This document shows, in pieces, positions 40,716 through 50,993 of a stretch of 52,428 bases of DNA. The notes beneath the pieces were generated by a model. It did no database searches and had not been told where the DNA came from. It saw nothing but the letters and a program-made list of their open reading frames with translations. The stretch covers positions 1 through 52,428 of the forward strand of contig SHZY01000020.1 in the NCBI GenBank assembly GCA_009692065.1. Reading direction: 5' to 3'. The first letter of the stretch is position 1, and every line of letters begins with the position of its first letter. The stretch is from Gemmataceae bacterium. GTDB lineage: Bacteria > Planctomycetota > Planctomycetia > Gemmatales > Gemmataceae. A program made the translations under genes and the position numbers.

Positions 40716-40814
40716 GAATTCCCGGCGAGCCGAACCCGTAAGGGGCCGGATACCGGCACCAGTTGCTGGGCACTCAACCCGGCCCCTTACAGGGCTCGTC
40801 TCGCCGGAGAATTC
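40716..40814. repeat. Family H long inverted repeat (99 bp)
   Basis: GAATTCCCGGCGAGCCGAAC... on the left pairs with ...ACGAGCCCTGTAAGGGGCCGG read from the other strand on the right; GAATTC, CCGGCGAG and GTAAGGGGCCGG are shared by both arms. The right end overlaps the first bases of the SDR stop codon (40813-40815). The remaining 40605-40715 shows nothing recognisable. Confidence 0.85.
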
Positions 40815-41712
40815 AGAAACTCCCCCGCAACCCCTGCCCATAATCCGGATACCGCAACTCCACGCCCAATTCCTCCTTCATGCGGCGGTTGTTGATGCGG
40901 CGATTGGCGCGCTCGTGCGGTGGCAGCCCCCTCACCCCCGGCCCCTCTCCCCCGGAAGGGAGAGGGGAGAAATGCGGAGCCGGAGCGTCGAGCGCCTTCG
41001 CCAGGGCGGCGTAGAAGTAGCGGCGGCGGACCGGGTGATCGTCGCACACGTTATAGATGCGGCCCGGCTGGCCATGCCCTTCGGCGGCCAACACGGCGAG
41101 GCCGCCGTCCTCGACGTGGATCAGGTTGAGCCATTTATCCGCGTCGCCCACGATCGGCTCCCCCTTCTCGATTGTTTGGCGCCGAAGCAAGCGGCCGGGG
41201 CCGTAGATGCCGGCGAAACGCAGCACGATCGCGCTCGGCAACTTCGCCCGCAGCACCGCTTCCGCGTCCAGTACAATCTGCCCCGATGGCTCGGCGGGCT
41301 CCGTCGGTGAGGCCTCATCGACCCAGCCGCCGTCCGTCTGGCCGTAGACGCTGGAGCTGCTGACGTAGATGAAGCGCCCGGGTGCCCGCCCCCTCACCCC
41401 CGGCCCCTCTCCCCCGGAGGGGAGAGGGGAGAAGAGGGCGGACAGCAAATTCGCGAGGCCATCGACGTAGACCGACCGCATGGTCGCGCCGGACGTGCGG
41501 TCGAAACCGATCGCGTAGAGGACGGTATCGACTTTCGGCAACGCGCGCAGGCTGGCGGGATCGAGCACGTCGCAGACGATCGGCTCGACGTCGGCAGGCA
41601 AATGGGCGGCATCGCGCGTGGCGGCAAATACACGCCGGCCTTGCTGACGCCACAGAGCGGCGACGTGGCGGCCGAGATAGCCGCAGCCGAGGATCAGGTG
41701 GGAGGATGGCAT
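40813..41712 (-). CDS. SDR/NAD-dependent epimerase-like protein with two in-frame repeat inserts
   Basis: A 299-residue extended SDR. The Rossmann loop LGCGYLGRH is at residues 8-16, the dinucleotide strand VEPIVCDVLDPAS at about 44-56, and FIYVSSSSVYGQ holds the catalytic Ser/Tyr region. Two identical 15-residue segments FSPLPSGGEGPGVRG lie at residues 94-108 and 248-262; each is encoded by a 45-bp palindromic repeat (41389-41433, 40927-40971). They sit in predicted loops, so the fold can survive. The start at 41712 gives the canonical MPSSHLILGCG; longer in-frame extension to 42342 overlaps the next gene and is rejected. Confidence 0.9.
   Translation of the reverse strand: MPSSHLILGCGYLGRHVAALWRQQGRRVFAATRDAAHLPADVEPIVCDVLDPASLRALPKVDTVLYAIGFDRTSGATMRSVYVDGLANLLSALFSPLPSGGEGPGVRGRAPGRFIYVSSSSVYGQTDGGWVDEASPTEPAEPSGQIVLDAEAVLRAKLPSAIVLRFAGIYGPGRLLRRQTIEKGEPIVGDADKWLNLIHVEDGGLAVLAAEGHGQPGRIYNVCDDHPVRRRYFYAALAKALDAPAPHFSPLPSGGEGPGVRGLPPHERANRRINNRRMKEELGVELRYPDYGQGLRGSF
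40927..40971. repeat. Family G palindrome inside the SDR gene (copy near 3' end)
   Basis: A 45-bp unit beginning CCCCCTCACCCCCGGCCCCT and ending GGGAGAGGGGAGAA. It differs from the copy at 41389-41433 at one position and is read as 15 in-frame codons on the minus strand. Confidence 0.9.
41389..41433. repeat. Family G palindrome inside the SDR gene (copy near 5' end)
   Basis: The second 45-bp unit, in the same orientation and reading frame as the copy at 40927-40971. A shorter intergenic version of the hairpin core lies at 50965-50993. Confidence 0.9.
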
Positions 41713-41721
41713 GGGTTGTCC

Positions 41722-41761
41722 TCGTTTAGCGCCCGCGTGGCGCCATGCGAGCGCTAAACGA
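41722..41761. repeat. Family A palindrome
   Basis: TCGTTTAGCGCCCGCGTGGC pairs with GCCATGCGAGCGCTAAACGA. It lies between two minus-strand genes. Confidence 0.85.
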
Positions 41762-50964: not shown

Positions 50965-50993
50965 TTTCTCCCCTCCGGGGGAGAGGGGAGAAA
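50965..50993. repeat. Family G hairpin (intergenic)
   Basis: TTTCTCCCCTC pairs with GAGGGGAGAAA. It shares its core (CTCCCCTCCGGGGGAGAGGG) with the two 45-bp units inside the SDR gene, but lacks their CCCTCACCCCC end. It lies between the PQQ-like and esterase genes. Confidence 0.75.

Follow-up and report, generated by a model that had tools for sequence, protein, structure and literature searches.

In-frame copies of a BoxC/PIT/TM-type palindromic repeat within protein-coding genes of a Gemmataceae bacterium

Introduction

Palindromes within coding sequence were described first from Rickettsia and subsequently for tagged repeats. Rickettsia palindromic elements (RPEs) are found in frame in unrelated conserved genes as well as between genes, sometimes twice in a single gene (PMC2229807, PMC3733652), and have a length of 105–146 bp (PMC2229807). 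Repetitive extragenic palindromes (REPs) of the GTAG/CGTC type are small palindromes that occur as singles and dimers in several phyla; some are intragenic, including copies in DNA polymerase I, and double insertions in one ORF have been recorded, O. terrae, a member of the PVC superphylum, being among the species concerned (PMC3733652). Intragenic palindromic repeats outside Rickettsia, double insertions and a PVC species included, are already on record for these other repeat families (PMC3733652). The QMITEs of Coxiella burnetii are small inverted-repeat elements that are sometimes in frame in ORFs (PMC5896051).

The BoxC/PIT/TM repeat is described as a sequence with the potential to form an intrastrand triplex; more than 260 genomes contain it, in many copies and with a patchy distribution (PMC4666352). 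Formation of the intrastrand triplex in vitro by the purine-rich strand is a feature of the family, and in E. coli K-12 the repeat comes in CC-loop and TT-loop types, some arranged as inverted pairs, with all of its copies (23/23) intergenic (PMC4666352). Here we describe copies of this repeat inside genes of a Gemmataceae bacterium, starting from a stretch of 52,428 nucleotides (the window) in which two of them lie within one gene of the SDR family.

The SDR gene and its two inserts

The features of the window that concern the repeat are as follows.

40813–41712, minus strand: gene of the SDR / NAD-dependent epimerase-dehydratase family, an intact ORF of 299 aa with an ATG start and two in-frame copies of the element.
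41389–41433, minus strand: element copy 1 (BoxC/PIT/TM type, CC loop), 45 bp, encoding residues 94–108, FSPLPSGGEGPGVRG.
40927–40971, minus strand: element copy 2, 45 bp, encoding residues 248–262, a peptide identical to that of copy 1 (FSPLPSGGEGPGVRG).
50965–50993, no strand assigned: intergenic hairpin-only relative of 29 bp, consisting of the hairpin half (TTTCTCCCCTCCGGGGGAGAGGGGAGAAA) without the third GGGTGAGGG block.

The first-pass annotation of this DNA had reported two 45-bp units with one mismatch that encode the same peptide at residues 94–108 and 248–262, and recomputation returned these coordinates exactly. The single difference between the copies is synonymous (CCC/CCT), the C/T change in copy 2 affecting the first loop-side base. 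A 43-mer of the unit has two matches in the window and none in 100 dinucleotide shuffles. The shorter intergenic hairpin listed at 50965–50993 is likewise present, as the hairpin half only, and is not among the 149 genome hits of the search model R1 described below. A separate hairpin (CGTTTAGCGCTCGC...GGGCGCTAAACG) lies at 41720–41760 of the window, immediately ahead of the SDR start codon.

The host protein matches the Pfam Epimerase family (E 2.4e-15) and has strong matches in six congeners (E 1e-104 or better). An AlphaFold2 model built from 54 sequences has a fold resembling that of SDR structures, 3ius and 3gpi among them, with a mean pLDDT of 93.5 that drops to 58 and 66 in the ten-residue blocks at units 1 and 2, respectively. 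Unit 1 is modelled as coil, following helix 78–94 and preceding strand 113–119, and unit 2 as coil between helix 230–240 and helix 276–282. The earlier prediction that both units occupy loops agrees with the low-confidence coil of the model (blocks of 58 and 66). Such inserts add seemingly harmless loops to proteins.

The protein was aligned with its 29 best matches among relatives with available loci, six congeners represented by draft genomes being included. Whether homologues elsewhere carry the segments had been raised as a challenge to the insertion reading; unit 1 is missing from 29 of 29 aligned orthologues, and in a codon-level comparison the flanking codons on both sides match the six congeners directly. 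On these two grounds unit 1 is, as judged from the alignment, a clean full-length insertion of 45 bp. At the site of unit 2 the same anchors enclose 15 residues here against 8 or 9 in the six congeners, a net gain of 6 or 7 residues, so that unit 2 is either an insertion accompanied by loss of a variable linker or a replacement of it. The proposal that the repeat was inserted twice in this gene accordingly stands for unit 1 and has to be widened for unit 2. Inspection of the SDR gene by eye revealed no target-site duplication.

In one congener (G005; locus L047, ~1905–1956) the SDR orthologue has an in-frame insert of another kind: a palindrome, nearly perfect (TCAGAGCCTGAAGCGTTAGCGAAGGA ... 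TCCTTCGCTTACGCTTCAGGCTCTGA), that lies just ahead of the APIILRF strand. The core of this palindrome is also present in the source genome, with both arms at L177 and one arm at L033, and it constitutes a second palindromic family that enters genes too.

Identity of the element

By their block sequence the SDR inserts are copies of the BoxC/PIT/TM 'intrastrand triplex' repeat (PMC4666352). The unit is laid out as a pyrimidine block followed by two purine blocks, and its blocks CCCCTCTCCCC / GGGGAGAGGGG / GGGGTGAGGGG match those of the E. coli BoxC/PIT/TM_ECO repeat. The family arrangement of CCCTCTCCC, a short loop, GGGAGAGGG, a second short loop and GGGTGAGGG was found in both window copies and in an alignment of 32 copies from the genome; the other family hallmark, many near-identical copies and inverted pairing of two loop types, was found as well (149 copies; 19 of 19 pairs convergent). 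Between copy 18 of E. coli (CCCTCGCCCCTCCGGGGAGAGGGCCGGGGTGAGGGG) and window copy 1 there is one substitution, along with three length differences of a single G each.

The element measures 45 bp in the SDR gene, and a second size class elsewhere is three bases shorter. The majority consensus of the 32-copy alignment has recurring ends, TTYCTCC...GGGGGC, and the consensus nTTnCTCCCCTCTCCCCTCCGGGGGAGAGGGGCCGGGGGTGAGGGGGC, read by eye, contains neither GTAG nor CGTC on either strand. When the DNA of the unit is folded as a hairpin only, its energy is little better than that of shuffles (z -0.8 to -1.7). RNAalifold paired the first block with the third when R1 was built, and R1 was used purely as a finder.

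Copy number and position relative to genes

Within 3 mismatches of the 43-mer, 31 places were found in the whole source genome, a 255-contig draft, and none with the reversed control. Model R1, built from 32 copies, raised the count to at least 149, which is a lower bound as 150 candidates were scored with it. Position relative to genes was classified for 140 copies with flanks, nine weak copies being left out; coding was called on both 180-bp flanks with a codon model trained on the long ORFs of the fetched loci. Both flanks were coding on the same strand and in the same frame for 59 copies, on the same strand in another frame for 8 and on opposite strands for 6, while 54 copies had one coding side and 13 had neither. 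Two of the 59 same-frame copies sit right behind a stop, which leaves 57 copies in 55 ORFs; these are called in frame from codon statistics, backed for some of the hosts by Pfam matches and orthologues. Two ORFs other than the SDR gene hold two copies each. Because little of the gene remains downstream of SDR copy 2, the flank method scored this copy as 'one side', and since it was missed the in-frame count is an undercount, low rather than high.

Random positions in the same loci were same-frame in 910 of 1476 cases and on the same strand in another frame in 38 of 1476. Same-frame calls are thus more frequent at random positions than at the element, which indicates that genes are hit less than chance expects. 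Where both flanks were coding on one strand, the frame was preserved in 59 of 67 copies. Strict-core lengths were similar in genes and elsewhere, just 19 and 23 copies matching the strict core. That intragenic copies have passed a filter, by which the frame is kept, no stop is introduced and the site is a variable loop, seems settled.

Host proteins and presence in relatives

Besides the SDR gene there are 54 host ORFs, 50 of which were scanned; 47 of the 50 belong to a Pfam family at E<=1e-5. The hosts include the following.

DNA polymerase I (polA), with the element between exonuclease domains; TrpE (trpE), with the element between domains.
TrpA (trpA); methionyl-tRNA formyltransferase (fmt); a LarC-type nickel insertion protein; a menaquinone-synthesis protein.
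An AcrB-type transporter; a SpoU methylase; a glycosyltransferase; others.
Four DUF1501 and 12 PSD1 (DUF1553) proteins.

By our reading of the Pfam tables, the element falls within one domain envelope in 27 of 50 cases, and the rest lie in linkers or outside domains. Eight PSD1/DUF1553 ORFs are occupied at the same position (L015, L012, L026, L024, L036, L128, L140 and L151), after WLA.EF or a variant of it and ahead of a W in the next stretch; the element is read there in more than one frame and its right junctions differ. In L036 a whole inverted pair of ~114 bp is in frame. This shared site is an insertion hot spot or a place of repeated gene conversion.

Presence of the element differs among sister species. 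The TrpA element is found in the source genome (G000) and in G001 and is missing in seven others, and two solved TrpA chains are without it; the Fmt element is found in the source genome and in G003 and is missing in seven others. Among nine genomes the LarC element is confined to the source genome, as is the PolA element among seven, G001 being without it and the net gain in PolA relative to G001 being three residues. This uneven presence points to insertions of different ages in loops that were already variable. At SDR copy 2 and the TrpA, Fmt, LarC and PolA sites, relatives differ in how long the loop or linker is and fewer residues are gained on balance than the element encodes, and for this reason insertion and replacement are inseparable there. 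Among the LarC orthologues (L284–L291), G001 and G002 share in the same loop an insert that is not the element (...GLSAVGV...); this loop gathers unrelated insertions.

Paired copies and possible modes of spread

Among the 140 classified copies there are 19 neighbouring pairs within 300 bp, all 19 convergent, so that 38 of 140 copies (about a quarter) are paired. The gap is 18–19 bp in 7 of the 19 pairs and 28 to 180 bp in the others, and by our own reading 15 of the 19 combine one CC-loop unit with a TT- or TA-loop partner. Two inverted units at short distance, the arrangement of a REPIN, are thus present in 19 instances. REPINs are REPs linked to a RAYT.

It is possible, although we consider it somewhat unlikely, that the element is a REP or REPIN mobilized in trans by a RAYT-type (TnpA_REP, Y1 HUH) transposase. 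The convergent pairs, with their 18–19 bp gaps in 7 of 19 and mixed loop types in 15 of 19, resemble REPINs or BIMEs, and the lack of a visible target duplication at the SDR gene fits RAYT-type enzymes, for which such a duplication is not expected. Y1_Tnp occurs in 46 of the 59 genomes surveyed, and its hits correlate with motif counts across them (Spearman 0.47, p 2e-4), a correlation that may however reflect genome size or mobile-element load. Against mobilization by such an enzyme, the consensus carries no GTAG or CGTC tag; one genome (G049) lacks Y1_Tnp hits despite its 15 motifs, and conversely the motif is missing from nine genomes in which Y1_Tnp has at least four hits. In the 14 Y1_Tnp loci examined (3 in the source genome and 11 in relatives) the full motif was found near the transposase in none, a lone GGGTGAGGG at L039 being the nearest approach, and a cognate RAYT flanked by repeats was thus not found; on this count a RAYT adjoining the elements was rejected. 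A phage vehicle was rejected weakly, on 0 matches of an exact 42-mer in viral contigs, which as a single exact pattern is a weak test.

An enzyme-free origin, through replication or repair errors provoked by the hairpin or triplex (template switching, or ectopic templating from another copy), is also conceivable and is held just as tentatively. Such errors would also account for replaced loops. In keeping with them, SDR copy 2, TrpA and PolA gained on balance less than the length of the element, the PSD1 site is filled in eight ORFs in at least two frames with different right-hand junctions, and the surroundings of the motif are reported to be more variable in E. coli (PMC4666352). SDR copy 1, as a clean full-length insertion, speaks against them, and the recurring ends TTYCTCC...GGGGGC suggest a defined unit.

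Reading frames and encoded peptides

The 57 in-frame copies use five of the six reading frames and never the TGA frame. Among the 40 sense copies, 20 encode the LPSPLRGRGAGGEG type and 20 the FSPLPSGGEGPGVRG type, and the absence of the TGA frame from all 40 has a naive chance of 9e-8; the 17 antisense copies are distributed over three frames as 6, 3 and 8. Sense copies outnumber antisense copies (40 vs 17, p 0.003), partly due to paralogous hosts. Absence of the peptide from other proteins had been put forward earlier as a ground for doubt; with 57 of 140 copies in frame in ORFs, 20 are in the frame of the SDR peptide.

Since five frames and both orientations are in use, the spreading unit is the DNA, and the peptide is whatever the frame yields; the SDR 15-mer is one of five peptides encoded by the same DNA in different hosts. 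That selection has instead spread the 15-residue peptide as a functional protein module, an idea to which its identical occurrence twice in the SDR protein lends some appeal, is very improbable and was rejected on the five frames in use: the same DNA gives five peptides, the host proteins share no common function, orthologues do without the unit-1 peptide and the predicted loops are of low confidence in the model. The peptide would then be a by-product rather than a selected function.

Distribution among genomes

The block pattern was sought in the source genome and 58 relatives; those of them with a name in an assembled-genome collection are mostly Gemmataceae and other Planctomycetota MAGs. 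It matched in 24 of the 59 genomes, with no match of the reversed control in any of the 59; counts within the genus were 67, 79, 57, 47, 0, 1 and 5. In the sister species G001, 20 of the 30 best copies were same-frame and open. The notion that the inserts are an assembly or binning artefact, for which the 255-contig state of the draft might speak, is scarcely credible given that frames are intact in 57 places, that the TrpA insert is common to one separate sister genome and the Fmt insert to another, that G001 has the same distribution, and that sequencing reads usually exceed a 45-bp repeat in length.

Lineages were compared with a single motif scan and per-genome codon models, overlapping loci being counted once. 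Same-frame copies made up 32 of 74 in the source genome (G000), 16 of 27 in G001, 6 of 18 in G023 and 1 of 8 in G045, against 0 of 27 in G042, 0 of 13 in G049 and 0 of 34 in G034. These fractions are samples, the stretches of G042, G049, G045 and G023 being chosen among the listed hits, away from contig ends, and the loci of G001 and G034 being the 30 best-scoring places each. Taken together, 48 of 101 copies were same-frame in G000 and G001 vs 7 of 100 in the five other element-bearing genomes (p 4.5e-11, a value computed over clustered copies that are not independent, in genomes picked for many motifs). Out of 600 random positions, the codon models scored between 178 and 400 as same-frame in those five genomes, and the zeros in G042, G049 and G034 are therefore not due to blindness of the method. 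The coding habit is strong in the source genus and partial in G023, and is not general to the element.

In G034, a single-contig genome from another family (loci L333–L362), many copies are arranged in spaced like-oriented runs with ~80–400 bp between copies, and the DNA there is scored non-coding.

Discussion

The SDR inserts share with the BoxC/PIT/TM repeat the same three-block sequence, inverted pairing of two loop types, a high copy number and a patchy distribution; the difference is that in E. coli K-12 the repeat is reported to be always intergenic (23/23; PMC4666352), whereas in the source genome ORFs contain at least 57 of the 140 copies in frame. The parallel with the protein-coding palindromic elements of Rickettsia that the first-pass annotation had drawn holds, and extends far beyond one gene (57/140). 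Like RPEs, the element is a palindromic repeat in frame in diverse conserved genes, but it belongs to another phylum and its 45-bp unit falls outside the 105–146 bp reported for RPEs (PMC2229807), the in-frame pair in L036 measuring ~114 bp. The element works like an RPE and appears to be another family.

With GTAG/CGTC REPs it has in common single and paired small palindromes inside ORFs, a host in DNA polymerase I and double insertions, and it differs from them in that the tag was not found, no RAYT was seen adjoining its copies and the sequence family is another one (PMC3733652). Two inverted palindromes close together form one dispersed unit here as in REPINs (PMC3116915), but the link to a RAYT was not found in the 14 loci examined. 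QMITEs are of the MITE type, and their mid-ORF in-frame cases considered here are in hypothetical proteins rather than many conserved enzymes (PMC5896051). A literature search over titles and the starts of abstracts found no earlier report of BoxC/PIT/TM repeats in frame in genes, and a search on the peptide strings of the element gave no match. New here are the occurrence of BoxC/PIT/TM repeats in a coding mode, the scale on which this happens and the unevenness with which it is distributed over lineages.

In our view, the SDR inserts are very probably a dispersed BoxC/PIT/TM repeat, selfish and REP-like, whose copies survive in genes only in frame, free of stops and in flexible loops or linkers. 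The DNA would multiply as a selfish, REP-like element, inserting wherever possible and often losing or replacing neighbouring bases. Within genes, the survivors would be those copies that keep the frame, lack a stop and lie in flexible loops or linkers, where a translation rich in Pro, Gly, Glu and Arg may be tolerated as a disordered loop. In the source genus the element would reach, or survive in, genes, whereas in most other sampled element-bearing planctomycetes it appears mainly or only between them.

A broader reading, which we regard as a tentative and rather doubtful one, is that a triplex-forming palindrome, otherwise located between genes, has become in this genus a steady supply of new protein segments. 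Size classes three bases apart together with five open frames would make entry nearly harmless, conserved enzymes would gain loops of 14–15 residues lineage by lineage and, with the second, unrelated palindrome in the SDR of a congener, this would amount to an RPE-like system that arose by convergence, the driving force being a change, specific to the lineage, in the insertion or tolerance of palindromes.

With the element in frame in ~40% of the classified copies here and in none of those sampled in three other element-bearing planctomycete genomes, the contrast among genomes that share the same element offers a natural experiment on how mobile DNA is kept out of genes and on the origin of new protein loops. 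In such proteomes, peptides resembling PSPLPGGEG would best be read as translated repeats and not as domains. The case illustrates how mobile DNA may become protein.
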